Shown here piece by piece: positions 13,285-52,613 of a stretch of DNA of 64,000 bases. A model generated the notes under the pieces. It saw only the letters and a program-made list of their open reading frames with translations. It searched no databases and had not been told where the DNA came from. The DNA is taken from contig NZ_CANMUA010000002.1 of assembly GCF_947500995.1 (NCBI RefSeq), forward strand, positions 62,001 through 126,000, read 5' to 3'. This stretch comes from an uncultured Serinicoccus sp. Its GTDB lineage: Bacteria; Actinomycetota; Actinomycetes; Actinomycetales; Dermatophilaceae. The translations under genes and the position numbers were made by a program. How positions within the stretch are numbered: the first letter of the stretch is position 1; every line of letters begins with the position of its first letter.

Positions 13285-13369
13285 CAACCATTCACGGCGC
13301 CCGGTGAGGGTGGAGCCCACCATGCGCGGCGCCCGGTGGGAGCTGAGGCAACCATTCGCGGCGCTCGGT
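13285..13369. repeat. Three tandem units, 32-bp period (family A, locus 1)
   Basis: Units at 13285-13305, 13317-13337 and 13349-13369 fit CAACCATYCRCGRCGCYCGGT with 11-bp spacers, exactly 32 bp apart. The middle unit has two mismatches. A decayed fourth copy may lie near 13384-13404. The array fills the gap between the convergent stops of hemE (13282) and the RNase D gene (13409). The same unit recurs at 48.3-48.6 kb. Confidence 0.9.
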
Positions 13370-13408
13370 GGGGAATCCCTCCGAGCGAGGTATGCGGCGC
13401 CCGTCCCG

Positions 13409-29202: not shown

Positions 29203-30228
29203 ATGACCGACACCACCGAGCTGACCAACGACACCGGGACCGGCAGCGGCATCCTCGGCACCGGGATCCGCGAGGGTCTGCTGCTCAAGCCCGTCACCTA
29301 CCCGTGGGCCATGGAGCTCTACGACCAGGCCGTCGCCAACACGTGGTTCCCCAACGAGATCCAGCTCGGCGAGGACCTCGGCGACTTCGAGCGGATGAGC
29401 GAGGACGAGCGGTACGCCCTCACCTTCCTCATGTCCTACTTCAACCCCAACGAGCTGCTCGTCAACAAGGCCCTGGCCTTCGGCGTCTACCCCTACGTCA
29501 ACGCCGCCGAGTGCCACCTCTACCTCGCCAAGCAGATGTGGGAGGAGGCCAACCACTGCATGAGCTTCGAGTACGTCCTGGAGACCTTCCCGATCGACCG
29601 GGAGGCCGCCTACAGCTCTCACGTGCAGGTCCCCTCGATGGCGGCCAAGGAGGAGTTCGAGGTCCGCTTCATCCGGCGGATGACCGAGCAGACGCTGGAC
29701 ATCTCCACGACCGAGGGCAAGCAGGACTTCGTCCGCAACCTCGTCGCCTACAACGTCATCCTCGAGGGCATCTGGTTCTACTCCGGGTTCATGGTGGCGC
29801 TGAGCTTCCGGCAGCGGAACCTGCTGCGCAACTTCGGCTCGCTCATCGACTGGATCGTCCGGGACGAGAGCCTGCACCTGAAGTTCGGGATCAACCTCAT
29901 CCTCACCGTCCTGGAGGAGAACCCGGACGTCGCGACGCCGGAGTTCGCCGACGAGATCCGCGGGATGGTCCTGCAGGCGGTGGAGATGGAGGAGGCGTAC
30001 AACCGGGACATGCTGCCGAACGGCATCCTGGGGCTCAACGCCGACTACATCAACACCTACGTCAAGTACCTCGCCGACCGGCGGCTGGAGGAGCTTGGCT
30101 TCGAGCCGGCCTACGGCGTGGCGAACCCCGCGAAGTGGATGGCCACCGCCAACGACACGTTGCAGCTGGTGAACTTCTTCGAGTCCATCAACACCTCCTA
30201 CGAGGTGAACACCCGCGCCGACTCCTGA
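29203..30228 (+). CDS. nrdB: Ribonucleotide reductase beta subunit, class Ic-like
   Basis: 341 residues, the radical-generating R2 subunit. Aligning with E. coli NrdB by eye gives metal ligands E84 (NPNELLV), E115 and H118 (EEANHCMSF), E188 (ILEGIWF), E222 and H225 (RDESLH). The residue at the radical tyrosine position is F122. Glu in place of the first Asp plus Phe in place of Tyr is the signature of Mn/Fe class Ic enzymes first defined in Chlamydia, so no tyrosyl radical is expected. CCAGGAGA precedes ATG 29203. It follows nrdA by 37 bp under the same B12 riboswitch and NrdR-like boxes, and ends just before a 19-bp-period repeat array. Confidence 0.93.
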   Translation: MTDTTELTNDTGTGSGILGTGIREGLLLKPVTYPWAMELYDQAVANTWFPNEIQLGEDLGDFERMSEDERYALTFLMSYFNPNELLVNKALAFGVYPYVNAAECHLYLAKQMWEEANHCMSFEYVLETFPIDREAAYSSHVQVPSMAAKEEFEVRFIRRMTEQTLDISTTEGKQDFVRNLVAYNVILEGIWFYSGFMVALSFRQRNLLRNFGSLIDWIVRDESLHLKFGINLILTVLEENPDVATPEFADEIRGMVLQAVEMEEAYNRDMLPNGILGLNADYINTYVKYLADRRLEELGFEPAYGVANPAKWMATANDTLQLVNFFESINTSYEVNTRADS

Positions 30229-30241
30229 GGGCTGGGCGCGG

Positions 30242-30537
30242 CCTGTGCACGGGGCCGCGGCCTGTGCACGGGGCCGCGGCCTGTGCGCGAGAAGGCAGCC
30301 TGTGCACCGGACCGCGGCCTGTGCACGAGAAGGCAGCCTGTGCACCGGACCGCGGCCTGTGCACGGGATCGGTGTCTGTGCACGCGAACCCAGCCTGTGC
30401 ATGCCGTAGAACACATGCACAGGCTGCAGAAGCGTGCACAGGTCGCGCTCGCCTACACAGGCTGCAGAAGCGTGCACAGGTCGCGCTCGCCAACACAGGC
30501 TGCAGAAGCGTGCACAGGCCGCGCCCGCCTGCACAGG
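30242..30537. repeat. 16-unit array, exact 19-bp period, with central inversion
   Basis: Nine units in the CCTGTGCAC orientation start at 30242, 30261, 30280, 30299, 30318, 30337, 30356, 30375 and 30394. Seven in the opposite orientation (GTGCACAGG-like) start at 30415, 30434, 30453, 30472, 30491, 30510 and 30529. Each step is 19 bp. The centre is a palindrome, CAGCCTGTGCATG (30391-30403) against CATGCACAGGCTG (30414-30426). Spacers alternate, giving 38-bp higher-order units on both sides. The array fills the 323-bp gap between the convergent nrdB and membrane-protein genes. Confidence 0.95.
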
Positions 30538-30551
30538 TCACACCCATGCGG

Positions 30552-32600
30552 TCAGGCGCAGCCGGTGAACTCCCAGATCGAGGCGTGGCCGCCCTCGTCG
30601 ACGAGGGTCCACGCCTCCTCGGCCCGCTCGGTGGCCGGCGTGTCGACCCGGCCGAGCGGGTCGGCGCCGCTGCCGAAACCGCCGTCCGGGTCCAGGTTGC
30701 GCAGCCCCGGCGAGGTCTCCTCCCACTTGGCGTTGGCGGGGTCCTCGAAGGTGAGGGAGTCGGCATACACGTGGGTGACCCCGAGCGTGCGCACCGCCTC
30801 GCAGACCTCGGGGTCGACGGCCCACCGGTCGAAGCGGTCGAGGAGGATGTCGCGCTCGGGGCTGTCCGGGATCGGGCTGAGCTGGGGGAAGACGACGTCG
30901 ACCCCGGCGCGGTGCAGCAGGTAGGGCGACCCGGCGACCGGCTCGCCGAGCACGACGGCGTCCTCGGGCAGGGTCTGCGCGGCCCGGTCGACCATCGCGA
31001 CCTCCTCCGGCTCCAGGATCGTCCCCCAGGCGATCGGGCTCGCGGTATAGGTCGAGGCCATGACCTGCACCTGGCTCGTCCAGCGCAGCCCCGAGGTCAG
31101 CACGACGAGCGCCACGACCAGCCCGGCGGCGACCCACTCGACGCGCACCCGCAGCACCCGCGACAGGCGGCCGGCCAACCAGCCCCCGGCACCGGCGGCG
31201 AGCAGGATCGCGGGGACGAGGACGAGCTGGTTGATGCGGGAGGCCTGGGTGTACCAGAACCCCGAGAGCACCCGCAGCGGCTGCTCGGGCGGGCCCGCGG
31301 CGAGGAGGGTGAGCACCACCGCGGCGACCAGCGAGACCACGAGCCACCGGGCGTGCCGCCAGCGCAGCGCCAGGGCGATCCCCAGCCAGACGAGCAGCGT
31401 GGTCACGAGGTTGACCGAGGTGATCGTGTAGACGTAGATCAGCGGGTGGTCGATGGCCAGGGAGCCGAGCCCCGGCAGGTAGGACTCCTGCCCGCCGCGG
31501 CGGTAGTCCATGATCGCCAGGACCGGCGGGAACGTCAGCAGGAAGACCGCAGCCCCGCCCACGAGCACCACCCAGGCGACCCCCGCGGTCACCGCGCCGA
31601 CCCGCCGACCCAGTCGGAACTGGCGGCGCAGCTGGCGCAGGAGCAGCACGGTGAGCAGCGGCAGCGCGAGCAGCGCCAGGCTGAAGAGCCCCGACGGGTG
31701 CGCGAGGACGACACCGACGACGGCCCAGGCCAGCCCGATCCCCAGCGCCAGGTGCATCCGCCAGGACAGCACCCCGCGGAAGGTCGCGACCAGCAGGGCG
31801 ATCGTGCCCGGCAGGCACGCGGTGCTCAGCGCGAAGGGCCACACCGCCAGCATCGACACGGCGACGGCGGGGAAGGTGACGAAGGTCGCCGCCAGGACGG
31901 GCACGAGGATCGTCGGCAGCGCCCGCGCCGGCCACACGACCCGGGCCAGCGCGACCAGCCCGGCGACCCAGACGACGGACCCGAGGACCAGCGAGGAGGC
32001 GTTGGCCGCCTCGGTGACCCCCTCGAACCCGGGGGCGACGGCGGCCAGGGAGTGCCAGACGGCGGGGTAGAAGGGGGCGGCGTTGTCGGCGTACATCGGG
32101 GCCAGCCCGCCGAGCGAGCTGGCGTCGCCCGTCTCGCGGACGAACCAGAGCGCGTTGAGGTGGAAGACGGCGTCCCAGGCCTGGGGCGGCTGGTCGGCCC
32201 GCCCCATCCCGGTCGTCATGGCCGCCGCGAGGACGCCCCCGCCGAGCAGCCAGGTGAGCGCGAGCCACCCCCGTTCGGTATGCCGCAGCGCCCGCTCCCC
32301 CGCCACCGTCACCCCGGACGGGTGCCCGGTCGTGCCCAGCACGGTCCCGAGCAGCACGGCCACGACGACCGCGACCAGGGCGCCGAGCGCGAAGGTCAGC
32401 AGGGTCCACGGCAGCCCCACGAGGGCGTAGCCGATCGCGAGCACCCCGGCCAGACCCGTGGTCACCGCCGGACCCGCGCCGAGCGCGAGCAGACCGCGCG
32501 CACCCAGGCCGCGGAGCACGGCATACCCCGGCAGCACCCAGAGGACCGCCAGCAGGACGATGCCCGGGACGACCTCCCCCCAGCCCACGCCGCCGGTCAT
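30552..32600 (-). CDS. DUF6541-like polytopic membrane protein
   Basis: 682 residues. At least twelve hydrophobic segments cover residues about 5-540, ending with a globular C-terminal part of about 150 residues (TLPEDAVVLGEPVAGSPYLLHRAG...). The architecture resembles GT-C-type glycosyltransferases or arabinosyltransferase-like proteins, and the family sits in actinobacterial glycan loci. The sequence shows no firm catalytic motif to me; acidic residues in the second external loop region (DADQPPQ-like part, WDAVFHLNALWFVRETGD) could be the active site. ATG 32600 overlaps the dehydrogenase stop as ATGA. It may transfer or polymerise surface sugars outside the membrane (inference). Confidence 0.75.
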   Translation of the reverse strand: MTGGVGWGEVVPGIVLLAVLWVLPGYAVLRGLGARGLLALGAGPAVTTGLAGVLAIGYALVGLPWTLLTFALGALVAVVVAVLLGTVLGTTGHPSGVTVAGERALRHTERGWLALTWLLGGGVLAAAMTTGMGRADQPPQAWDAVFHLNALWFVRETGDASSLGGLAPMYADNAAPFYPAVWHSLAAVAPGFEGVTEAANASSLVLGSVVWVAGLVALARVVWPARALPTILVPVLAATFVTFPAVAVSMLAVWPFALSTACLPGTIALLVATFRGVLSWRMHLALGIGLAWAVVGVVLAHPSGLFSLALLALPLLTVLLLRQLRRQFRLGRRVGAVTAGVAWVVLVGGAAVFLLTFPPVLAIMDYRRGGQESYLPGLGSLAIDHPLIYVYTITSVNLVTTLLVWLGIALALRWRHARWLVVSLVAAVVLTLLAAGPPEQPLRVLSGFWYTQASRINQLVLVPAILLAAGAGGWLAGRLSRVLRVRVEWVAAGLVVALVVLTSGLRWTSQVQVMASTYTASPIAWGTILEPEEVAMVDRAAQTLPEDAVVLGEPVAGSPYLLHRAGVDVVFPQLSPIPDSPERDILLDRFDRWAVDPEVCEAVRTLGVTHVYADSLTFEDPANAKWEETSPGLRNLDPDGGFGSGADPLGRVDTPATERAEEAWTLVDEGGHASIWEFTGCA

Positions 32601-47218: not shown

Positions 47219-48523
47219 TCAGCCTCGCACACCGAGCACCACGGCCGCCGCGCCGTCGCCGGTGGCCGCCAGGCTGCGGTGCTCGCGCACCCACGCCACG
47301 CGTCGCGCCCGCTCCGGCTCGTCCGGCCGCGCCCGCAGCGCCTGGACCATCGCCTCCGCCACCGCCCCGGCGTCGTGCTCGACGGCCGCGCCCAGCCGGT
47401 GCTCCCGGACGTCCGCCGCGGCCGGCCCGGGCCCGGCGAAGACCACCGGCGTCCCGCAGGCGAGGGCGGCGACGACCTTGGTGGGGTAGGCGAAGTCGTA
47501 GCCCACCCCCGGCCGCACGCTCACCAGGGCGGCGGCCGCACCGCGCAGCCAGGCCGCCGCCTCCTCCGGGGGGACCAGGGGACGCAGCTCGATCGCCCCC
47601 TCGGGCAGCTCGCCCGCGACGCGCCGCAGCTCGGGCCAGGACGAGCCCTGCCCGAGGAAGACCAGCCGCGCCCCCGGCACTTCCCGCACGACCCGCCGCA
47701 TCGCCTCGGCGAAGACCTCGGCGCCCTGCCACTCCGAGGCTGTCCCGGCATACACGAGGTATGCCGTGCCCGGCGCCTCCTGCGCCTGCTCGCCCTCGGG
47801 GGTGAAGACGTCGGTGTCGATCCCGTTGGGCACGACGGTGACCGGGGCGTCCTCCCCGGCCAGCGCGCGGACGCGGCCGGCCACCCCGTCGCTGACCGCG
47901 ACGATCCCGGCCGCGCCGCGCAGCGCGAACCGCTCGAGGGTGCGCATGAGGCTCGTCACGACGGCGGGCGCGCCCATCGAGGCCGTGGCGTCCGACCAGA
48001 CGTCCGCGGCGTAGTAGACGTAGGGGATGGGCCCACCGAGGACCGACCGGACCGCGAGGGCCACCCGGGTGACCGCCCCGGTCGTCGGCGGCGGCTCGAC
48101 CACGACGACGTCGGGCCGCGGTCCGGTGAGCAGGCGGGCGGCCAGCGGCAGGTCGAAGGAGAGGTACGGCAGGTACCCGCGGACGTAACCGCTGGCGTCC
48201 CGCAGCACCGGCCACCGGCTCACGCCGACCTGGGGATCGGCCGACGCCGACGCCGACGTCTCCCGCCCGTCCCCCTCCATCCCCACCGAGCGCCGCTTCT
48301 GGTTGCCCTCCATCCCCACCGAGCGCCGCGGATGGTTGCCCTGCGCCCCACCGAGCGTCGCGCGTGGTGGGCGCAGCGCCGAGGGCGGCGTGGTCGTGAG
48401 CACCCGCACGCGGGCGCGGCCGGCCAGGGAGCGCACGAGAGCACCGAGGCGGAAGGTCGCGGCCGCCGCCTCGGGGGCGTAGATCCGGGTGGCCAGGACC
48501 ACCAGTGGTGCCTGATCAGTCAC
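47219..48523 (-). CDS. Glycosyltransferase family 4, with in-frame repeat insertion
   Basis: About 434 residues of a WbuB-like GT4: LATRIYAPEAAAATFRLGALVRSLA at the N-terminus, VVVEPPPTTGA, YVYYAADVWSDATAS, IVAVSDGVAGRV, VVPNGIDTDVFTP, and donor-side VSVRPGVGYDFAYPTKVVAALACGTPVVFAG. Residues about 50-85 (NHPRRSVGMEG, NQKRRSVGMEGDG) do not belong to the fold: they are translated family A repeats (48285-48370) inserted in frame. GTG 48523 is the best start, but repeats lie right upstream and no ribosome binding site is visible. Whether the enzyme still works is uncertain. Confidence 0.8.
   Translation of the reverse strand: MTDQAPLVVLATRIYAPEAAAATFRLGALVRSLAGRARVRVLTTTPPSALRPPRATLGGAQGNHPRRSVGMEGNQKRRSVGMEGDGRETSASASADPQVGVSRWPVLRDASGYVRGYLPYLSFDLPLAARLLTGPRPDVVVVEPPPTTGAVTRVALAVRSVLGGPIPYVYYAADVWSDATASMGAPAVVTSLMRTLERFALRGAAGIVAVSDGVAGRVRALAGEDAPVTVVPNGIDTDVFTPEGEQAQEAPGTAYLVYAGTASEWQGAEVFAEAMRRVVREVPGARLVFLGQGSSWPELRRVAGELPEGAIELRPLVPPEEAAAWLRGAAAALVSVRPGVGYDFAYPTKVVAALACGTPVVFAGPGPAAADVREHRLGAAVEHDAGAVAEAMVQALRARPDEPERARRVAWVREHRSLAATGDGAAAVVLGVRG
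48285..48370 (-). repeat. Family A repeats inside the glycosyltransferase coding sequence
   Basis: Three units in reverse orientation at 48285-48305, 48318-48338 and 48350-48370 (ACCGAGCGCCGCGGATGGTTG type). Steps are 33 and 32 bp; the 33-bp step and the 12-bp spacer keep the frame. The first and third units carry several changes. They encode the repeated peptide RRSVGMEG. Confidence 0.88.
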
Positions 48524-48527
48524 CGGG

Positions 48528-48644
48528 CAACCATCCGCGACGCTCGGTGCGCGGCTGAGCAACCATCCACGGCGCCCGGTGCGCGGCTGGGCAACCATCT
48601 GCGACGCCCGGTGGGGGACAGAGCAACCATTCGCGGCGCCCGGT
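48528..48644 (+). repeat. Four tandem units, 32-bp period (family A, locus 2)
   Basis: Units at 48528-48548, 48560-48580, 48592-48612 and 48624-48644 follow CAACCATYCRCGRCGCYCGGT, exactly 32 bp apart, with spacers GCGCGGCTGAG, GCGCGGCTGGG and GGGGGACAGAG. They fill the space between the start of the glycosyltransferase gene (48523) and the stop of the oxidoreductase gene (48648). Confidence 0.95.
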
Positions 48645-48647
48645 CGG

Positions 48648-49658
48648 TCACAGGGTCCGGGTGCGCCCGGTGGCGGCGGAGTCGAGGATGGCCTCGACGA
48701 CCTCGAGGGTATGCACGCCCTCGGCCATGGAGACGACGTCGGCCGGGCGGCCCCACAGGGCGTCGCGGAAGTTCTCCTGCTCCACGCGCAGCGGTTCCCG
48801 GCGGGCGATGGCATACCGGATGGAGTCGCCCTCGGAGACCCCGCGGAAGGTCGCCGCCCGATCCCACTCGCTGCGCACGTCACCGTTGGCCACGAAGGTC
48901 AGGTCACCCTGCAGCGTGTCCGCGACGAACGCGCCCAGCTCCCCCGTCGCGACCGTCTCGCGCACCTTGAGCGGGCTCAGCCAGTTGACCGTGTGCGAGA
49001 CGATCGTCCCGTCGCGCAGCTGCCCGGTCGCCACCACCATGTCCTCGTGCTCGCGGCCCGAGCGGTGCGTCACCTGCCCGGACACGCTCGCGTACTCCGA
49101 GCGCGCGATCCACGCGGTCAGGTCGATGTCGTGGGTCGCGAGGTCCTTGACCACCCCCACGTCCGCGATCCGCGCCGGGAACGGCCCCTGCCGGGAGGTC
49201 GTGATCTGGTAGAGCTCGCCCAGCTCCCCCGCCGCGATCCGCCGCCGCATCTCCAGCAGCGCGGGGTTGCACCGCTCGACGTAGCCCACCGCGCCGACCA
49301 GCCCCGCCGACTCGAACGCCTGCGCCACCCGCCGCCCCGACTCCGCCGTCGCCGCGATCGGCTTCTCCACCATCGTGTGCACCCCCGCCTCGGCCAGGGC
49401 CAGCGCGACCTCCTCGTGCAGGTAGGTCGGCACCGCCACCATCGCCGCGTCGATGCCCGCGGCGATCAGCCCCTGCACGTCCGGCAGCACCGACAGCGCT
49501 CCCGCCACCCCGTGCTTGTCGCCCACCGGGTCCGCGACCGCCACCAGCTCCATCCCCTCCACCTCGCGGATCACCCGCGCGTGGTGACGCCCCATCGAGC
49601 CCAGCCCGATGAGGCCCATCCGGACCGTCCGGCCCTCCGGCAGCAGATGCGTGCTCAC
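48648..49658 (-). CDS. Gfo/Idh/MocA oxidoreductase (WbpB-like)
   Basis: About 336 residues. MGLIGLGSMGRHHARVIREV is the NAD-binding fold; VEKPIAAT carries the conserved Lys, and LATHDIDLTAWI the catalytic His region. In the Wbp pathway this family oxidises the 3-OH of UDP-GlcNAcA to a ketone, coupled to the next aminotransferase. GTG 49658 overlaps the aminotransferase stop as GTGA. The three-gene set acetyltransferase-aminotransferase-oxidoreductase is fully overlapping, so it acts as one unit. Confidence 0.9.
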   Translation of the reverse strand: MSTHLLPEGRTVRMGLIGLGSMGRHHARVIREVEGMELVAVADPVGDKHGVAGALSVLPDVQGLIAAGIDAAMVAVPTYLHEEVALALAEAGVHTMVEKPIAATAESGRRVAQAFESAGLVGAVGYVERCNPALLEMRRRIAAGELGELYQITTSRQGPFPARIADVGVVKDLATHDIDLTAWIARSEYASVSGQVTHRSGREHEDMVVATGQLRDGTIVSHTVNWLSPLKVRETVATGELGAFVADTLQGDLTFVANGDVRSEWDRAATFRGVSEGDSIRYAIARREPLRVEQENFRDALWGRPADVVSMAEGVHTLEVVEAILDSAATGRTRTL

Positions 49659-52169: not shown

Positions 52170-52613
52170 GTGCTCGACCAACCCCTCATCAAGCTCGTCC
52201 TCCTGCTGAGCGTCGTGGTGGTCACCACGATGCTCACCCGCTCCACGGCCGGGGTCCGGCACCAGGCGGTCCGTCGCCTGCTGCTGGTCGGCTTCGTGGT
52301 GCTGGCGGCGATCGCCATCCTCTTCCCGCGCGTCCTGACCCAGGTCGCCCAGCTGCTGGGGGTGGGCCGTGGCGCCGACCTGCTGCTCTACGGCCTCACC
52401 GTGGTCTTCCTCGGCTACGTCGCGGCGTCCTACCGCCGGATGCGCGAGCTCGAGCAGCAGGTCACCACGCTCGCCCGGGAGCTGGCCCTGCGCGCCGCGG
52501 TGCACGACACCACCGAGCACGACATCACCGGGGACGACATCACCGGGGACGACTCCACCGAGGACGACCCGGACGCCCCACCCGGTCAGAGCTCGCGGCG
52601 CAGCCTGTCGTAG
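52170..52613 (+). CDS. DUF2304 membrane protein
   Basis: 147 residues from GTG 52170, preceded by GGAGG. Three hydrophobic segments lie at about residues 8-22, 37-56 and 68-86, then a short coiled-coil region RRMRELEQQVTTLARELA and an acidic tail with the repeated DITGDD element. DUF2304 proteins accompany GT2 enzymes and probably anchor them. Its last 28 bp overlap the 3' end of the opposite-strand phosphatase gene. Confidence 0.85.
   Translation: MLDQPLIKLVLLLSVVVVTTMLTRSTAGVRHQAVRRLLLVGFVVLAAIAILFPRVLTQVAQLLGVGRGADLLLYGLTVVFLGYVAASYRRMRELEQQVTTLARELALRAAVHDTTEHDITGDDITGDDSTEDDPDAPPGQSSRRSLS

Follow-up and report, generated by a model that had tools for sequence, protein, structure and literature searches.

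Repeat units within a GT4 glycosyltransferase gene

The window analyzed here is a stretch of 64,000 nucleotides from an uncultured Serinicoccus sp. It contains a gene for a GT4-type glycosyltransferase (Table 1) whose product matches the Pfam families Glyco_transf_4 and Glyco_trans_1_4. The start codon of this gene was picked from the N terminus conserved among orthologues; a simple gene caller chose position 48502. The sequence-only reading had placed reverse-oriented repeat units inside the gene, and we did find three units there on the minus strand, spanning positions 48284 to 48369. In order of increasing coordinate, these units have 2, 0, and 2 mismatches to the degenerate core AACCATNCGCGRCGCYCGGTG and are separated by steps of 33 and 32 bp. 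Translation across the insert gives PPRATLGGAQGNHPRRSVGMEGNQKRRSVGMEGDGRE, which contains two copies of RRSVGMEG at a spacing of 11 residues. The same reading had the units translated as RRSVGMEG, which holds for the second and third but not for the first, since this one, at a distance of 32 bp from the second, is translated in a different frame, leaving two copies rather than three. It was also right that the 33-bp step keeps the frame, as the only step of this length joins the two units of the GT4 gene that share a frame.

Table 1 Positions of repeat units and arrays and their host genes
Feature	Position in window	Strand	Remarks
GT4-type glycosyltransferase host gene	47219..48523	-	434 aa; GTG start at 48523; Pfam PF13439, PF13692, PF13579; repeat peptide GNHPRRSVGME
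First unit in GT4 (gene direction)	48349..48369	-	Degenerate; 32 bp from second unit; ATLGGAQG frame
Second unit in GT4	48317..48337	-	Exact core; read GNHPRRSVGMEG; RRSVGMEG at residues 66-73
Third unit in GT4 (gene direction)	48284..48304	-	RRSVGMEG at residues 77-84; 33 bp after second unit
Four-unit array, 32-bp steps	48529..48645	+	Between GT4 start and stop of next gene (48648-49658); opposite orientation
Three-unit intergenic array, 32-bp steps	13286..13370	+	Between convergent genes; second such array of the window
AAA ATPase			Peptide GQPSATPGGDQ; two to five units
MFS transporter			Peptide PDRASRVVAPT
Two E2 acyltransferases			PPGAADGSPST-type peptide
MutB			Array near N terminus
CobQ			Array within glutamine amidotransferase domain
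NAD synthase, ThiF-rhodanese protein, ABC ATPase			Arrays in other carriers
TilS (G004)			Diverged array between its two domains
ABC protein (G004)			Diverged array; further new G004 host

When we searched the window with a two-fold degenerate pattern at up to 3 mismatches, there were 10 matches compared to 0.05 expected, and none of 100 shuffles reached 10. The in-frame invasion of the GT4 gene by a dispersed repeat is confirmed as a real observation. A structure prediction for the GT4 protein, made from a three-sequence alignment, had a mean pLDDT of 41.6 and was too poor for placing the insert on the fold, and no solved structure matched the protein by sequence at an E value of 0.001. In that poor model the insert is predicted to be coil, with the lowest confidence, and we excluded it from the evidence.

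Unit structure and distribution of the repeat family

The repeat unit consists of the 21-bp core and a short locus-specific spacer, and it occurs mostly in small head-to-tail intergenic arrays. Spacers of 11 bp give a 32-bp unit and spacers of 12 bp a 33-bp unit. In the genome from which the window comes (G000), we found 90 places with up to 3 mismatches to a 23-base pattern, compared to 0 for the reversed control pattern, and 112 places with up to 2 mismatches to a 21-base pattern. With the latter pattern and threshold, matches were present in 37 of 186 genomes of the bacterial family. Nine genomes of the genus contain 14 to 261 units (G000, 112; G007, 14; G011, 261; G012, 35; G018, 132; G022, 88; G027, 124; G029, 156; G030, 139), while G004 has 7 matches and the other 27 genomes have one each; the reversed control gave one match in 12 of the 186. 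The nine carriers (at least 14 units each) form a single clade, with a support of 1.000, in a tree of 24 genomes.

We also applied a profile of a two-unit fragment to ten chosen genomes. Because 150 candidates were scored per genome, the resulting counts are lower bounds: at least 94 in G000, at least 34 in G004, at least 31 in G012, at least 11 in G007, and at least 5 in G017, with no match among the best 150 candidates in each of G026, G002, G014, G025, and G028. In a collection of named genomes, exact core matches were found at 65 loci, 62 of which come from four Serinicoccus genomes (S. chungangensis CD08_5, S. sediminis GP-T3-3, S. kebangsaanensis P2D13-UKM, and an uncultured Serinicoccus). 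The other three loci are single matches in Microbacterium, Variovorax, and Mameliella.

Of the 43 arrays in the stretches from the own genome, with one single-unit native motif omitted, 7 are located in genes, although 93.5% of the window is called coding. The mean identity of spacers in this genome is 0.849 within an array and 0.502 between arrays, as expected from local amplification, while that of the core is 0.905 and 0.811, respectively. Conservation of the core between arrays is higher than a pure passenger would need, which leaves room for a function. One candidate function is that of a binding site for a chromosomal DNA-binding protein, in which case arrays with a spacing of three helical turns would be functional clusters and the coding ones would be translated by accident. 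In addition to the difference between core and spacers, the regular 32-bp period is consistent with such a site, as is a shift of the core as a whole between lineages, in coding and intergenic arrays together. However, the number of units (at up to 2 mismatches) varies from 14 to 261 among relatives of one clade, and in the own-genome stretches there is no significant bias of the arrays toward gene 3' ends: convergent gaps make up 12 of 33 gaps with units and 19 of 87 without (P = 0.16), and divergent gaps 4 of 33 and 25 of 87 (P = 0.09). We regard the binding-site explanation as unlikely.

Presence of the insert among GT4 homologues

A search of 58 genomes for the GT4 gene produced matches in 48, and the best 30 places were turned into loci and aligned; the remaining 18 matching genomes, including G004, where the match is in separate pieces, are outside the alignment. 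Seven of the 30 aligned homologues contain the insert (G000, G029, G030, G018, G011, G022, and G027), with two to four units by eye when the degenerate first one is included, and all seven of these genomes also carry the repeat genome-wide. G012 has an apparent remnant of the first, degenerate unit only, and the other 22 homologues, that of the carrier G007 among them, have a short linker only. Measured from RVLT to RWPVL, this region spans 90 nt in G007 and G017, 204 nt in the window, and 246 nt in G030. The alignment thus agrees with the earlier proposal that the insert is not ancestral, the carriers being one clade. Since the carriers G007 and G012 are without a GT4 array (apart from the G012 remnant), inserts have been lost or are missing within the clade too.

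In G030, G011, and G027, the last unit of the array upstream of the GT4 gene continues in phase into the first codons of GT4, as it does in G017 with that genome's own version of the unit. The start codon then sits in a spacer (GT4 loci L042, L043, L045, and L052; window 48525-48645). The peptide at the start codons is also present in species without the array, so this overlap gives no direction, and the idea that the GT4 gene was the birthplace of the family was dropped.

In-frame arrays in other genes

Members of ten gene families in Serinicoccus-type genomes contain in-frame arrays in the stretches examined, with one case less certain. These families are GT4, an AAA ATPase, an MFS transporter, two E2 acyltransferases (E2a and E2b), MutB, CobQ, NAD synthase, a ThiF-rhodanese protein, and an ABC ATPase. 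In the ABC case in G011 (L273), the start codon may have been called too far upstream. The gene count excludes two isolated units, one in a MobA-like gene (L032) and one in Microbacterium (L071), as native or chance matches. The coding arrays occupy both strands and several frames, and their copy number varies among carriers. The invasion is broader than the GT4 gene and is not one accident. From Pfam domain borders and gaps in homologues, the host sites appear to be linkers, loops, and an N-terminal tail.

Orthologues of the host genes were compared in alignments built on stop-to-stop reading frames rather than annotated genes; this comparison leaves out the NAD synthase, the ThiF-rhodanese protein, and both ABC genes, and for E2b it consists of three carriers only. 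Among AAA ATPase orthologues from 18 genomes, the canonical unit is present in 5 (G000, G030, G018, G011, and G029) and a degenerate one in G012; the other 12 are without a canonical unit, and of these G004 and G017 hold their own version. For E2a, 5 of 28 rows contain units (G000, G029, G018, G030, and G011), and at least the G025 row stops short of the site. For CobQ, units are seen in 5 of 25 rows (G000, G030, G018, G029, and G011), G007 has a remnant at most, and units are absent from G012, G022, G027, and the 15 outside-clade rows that reach the site; the G005 row falls short of it.

These data bear on whether the peptide repeats are ancestral features of the proteins or chance resemblances among GC-rich codons. 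High-GC linkers are low in complexity, the single matches at L032 and L071 look native or accidental, and 3 of the 65 collection loci are in unrelated genera, all of which would be expected from such an origin. However, GT4, E2a, and CobQ orthologues outside the carriers have no inserts, different genes use both strands and several frames of the same DNA, and the own-genome search gave its 90 hits with none for the reversed pattern. We take this explanation as refuted by these tests, its probability being virtually nil.

The linker of the G007 AAA ATPase (L152) contains a 10-residue, PYRTSGGDEA-like repeat that scores only about 10 bits with any unit matrix. In the E2 genes (L023:2485-2571; L030:2498-2650), G replaces the usual C before the core in most coding units. 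Six of 16 twelve-base spacers end in G, all of them from the two E2 genes, and the antisense frame there has Ser where the usual form has Cys.

Repeat period in coding and intergenic arrays

We compared the steps between neighboring same-strand units in the fetched stretches; a unit was accepted with no more than 3 mismatches, or no more than 5 if it lay next to another unit. Counting orthologous arrays of several species separately, so that the steps are not independent, 34 of 43 coding steps are 33 bp long, compared to 15 of 399 intergenic steps; the 33-bp step is thus not exclusive to genes. In the own genome alone, the figures are 13 of 15 and 3 of 72, respectively. The stretches were picked around pattern hits, and genes were called by a simple codon-usage script rather than taken from curated annotation. 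Two arrays that the script called intergenic, L024 (MutB, whose true start is upstream) and L072 (a GT4 orthologue), were moved by hand to the coding class; before this change, 31 of 39 coding and 18 of 403 intergenic steps were 33 bp. Given the hit-centered stretches, the simple gene calls, the reassignment by hand, and the nonindependence of orthologous arrays, the fairest figure is the one by gene family, in which 33-bp steps occur in 9 of 10 families compared to 12 of 146 intergenic arrays of at least two units (Fisher P = 2e-8). The NadE array and the MFS array of G007 are exceptions, with 32-bp steps only.

In G004 and G017 the unit has diverged, and between genes its period is again 32 bp. 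The contrast in period recurs in these relatives: 33-bp steps make up 4 of 5 coding and 0 of 79 intergenic steps in G004 and 2 of 2 and 0 of 8, respectively, in G017, as scored with matrices derived from the same stretches (106 and 11 units) at a threshold that we set. Repeated gain or loss of single units needs a 33-bp step to keep the frame, while one in-frame insertion does not, and the 33-bp period is therefore best interpreted as a record of copy number changing by single units while selection preserves the frame.

The AAA ATPase linker contains three units of the species' own diverged version in both G004 (L143:2463-2549) and G017 (L148:2406-2492), with 33-bp steps and the frame that is also used in the Serinicoccus clade. 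These units score 29 to 33 bits with the matrix of their own species and 6 to 11 bits with the G000 matrix. The two diverged versions are alike, each scoring 20 to 26 bits with the matrix of the other, so it is chiefly the Serinicoccus clade from which they differ. G004 groups with G002 and G026, both of which are without profile matches among the best 150 candidates per genome. At the ATPase site, either an old insert was rewritten along with the family of each lineage or the site was invaded more than once.

Folding of the unit and comparison with known repeats

The units had been taken for palindromic repeats from the sequence, and this was not borne out. Shuffled versions of a single unit fold as well as the unit itself (z = -0.62 and +0.63 for the two strands). 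The same is true of a string of two units and of four arrays (window 48284-48369 on both strands, window 48527-48645, and L028), and z values across all of these range from -0.62 to +1.91. Only head-to-head pairs of units form hairpins, which are near-perfect and 51 nt long at L025:2428-2478 (z = -10.6) and L013:2550-2600 (z = -5.9). Both orientations are present at six own-genome loci in a list that omits one 4-mismatch hit in the window; the order is minus then plus at five of them (L013, L025, L029, L036, and L039) and mixed at L012.

In-frame gene invasion by small repeats is best known from Rickettsia, where the elements are palindromic, and coding palindromes are reportedly found in Wolbachia and Methanocaldococcus. 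The Rickettsia palindromic elements (RPEs) are described as 105 to 146 bp long, with long stem-loops and terminal inverted repeats (PMC2229807), and as dispersed repeats that occur in intergenic DNA as well as in in-frame fusions with unrelated conserved genes (PMC2229807, PMC10969869). The likeness to RPEs noted in the sequence-only reading stands for the outcome, in-frame insertion into many unrelated genes, here ten families plus TilS and an ABC protein in G004. It does not extend to the structural definition, since here a nonpalindromic 21-bp core in a 32- or 33-bp unit forms tandem arrays whose period differs between coding and noncoding sites. Repetitive extragenic palindromes (REPs) are described as palindromic units of 20 to 40 bp with a GTAG or CGTC tag, mainly intergenic with some within genes, and one REP class has no dedicated transposase (PMC3733652). 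Our repeat resembles REPs and BIMEs in its short units, which are mostly intergenic with some in genes, and differs from them in having a nonpalindromic unit and no Y1 transposase found in the genus. No constant GTAG or CGTC tag is present in the consensus core and spacers.

A nonautonomous palindromic element of the RPE, REP, or MITE kind, moved by a transposase, would have the same outcome in unrelated genes, and some of the head-to-head pairs are near-perfect palindromes. Against this, the single unit is not palindromic, and no match to the Y1 family (PF01797), the transposase class searched, was detected among 31 genomes of the genus, compared to positive results in 5 of 14 control genomes. 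On this result we rejected RAYT-type mobilization, and together with the folding data it indicates that the repeat is neither an RPE nor a REP, although the REP class without a dedicated transposase means that absence of Y1 is not a strict criterion. Neither MITE terminal inverted repeats nor a target-site duplication was recognized by eye, in a compared set without a strain pair having a recent empty site. Movement as a palindromic element is highly improbable and is largely refuted for RPEs and REPs.

The repeat has the features of a dispersed minisatellite, namely, head-to-tail arrays and copy-number variation at orthologous sites (between species). Mycobacterial interspersed repetitive units (MIRUs) form a dispersed family of small head-to-tail arrays; they belong to an actinomycete, differ in copy number, and have longer units. 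By this description, our repeat is like MIRUs and bacterial minisatellites in its small head-to-tail arrays, varying copy number, and actinomycete host; we know of no switch from 32 to 33 bp between noncoding and coding sites in them. Among open-licence papers, judged by title or the start of the abstract, we found no report of such repeats in Serinicoccus; the papers searched likewise gave nothing on Ornithinimicrobium tandem repeats or on actinobacterial interspersed tandem repeats inserted in frame. We regard the repeat as a minisatellite-based form of the known small interspersed repeats that enter genes in frame: a nonpalindromic minisatellite does so in actinomycetes, in ten or more conserved genes.

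A model for entry and persistence in genes

We consider it very probable that a dispersed minisatellite seeds new sites and then expands there by single units, persisting within genes only at places where the protein can accommodate it without loss of the frame. New sites would be seeded by one or a few units, and arrays would then grow and shrink one unit at a time, presumably by slippage or unequal recombination, with purifying selection on frame and position as the filter. Because only frame-keeping total lengths would survive in genes, the lengths would either sum to a multiple of three, as for three 32-bp units (96 bp), or move to the 33-bp unit, which is 11 codons long and would leave copy number free to change. 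Arrays would persist where extra residues are tolerated, in linkers, loops, and the N-terminal tail, and the predicted peptides are most likely passengers without a function of their own. Neither a target-site duplication nor a clean empty site was recognized in the orthologue alignments and the array listing, so the insertion step is unseen.

Alternatively, the minisatellite could act as a genome-wide supply of length-adjustable 11-residue linkers, held at 33 bp in genes and rewritten to each lineage's version, with some modules selected for. Rewriting to the lineage's own version is suggested by the ATPase gene of the Serinicoccus clade, G004, and G017, and a host with such a supply would gain length-adjustable modules in conserved enzymes, but we find this reading rather doubtful. 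Under seeding and unit-wise expansion, the contrast between 32 and 33 bp provides a clean natural readout of frame selection on a repeat that changes copy number. With it, one can test how new protein segments arise from repeats and whether sequence is exchanged between coding and noncoding copies.

Other tandem repeats in the window

A second tandem family, with 19/38-bp units containing TGCACAGGC, forms two arrays of opposite orientation at 30237-30537, filling the gap between convergent genes at 29203-30228 (+) and 30552-32600 (-). A 15-bp tandem repeat, ACGACACCACCGAGG, is present in 4.3 copies at 52504-52568.
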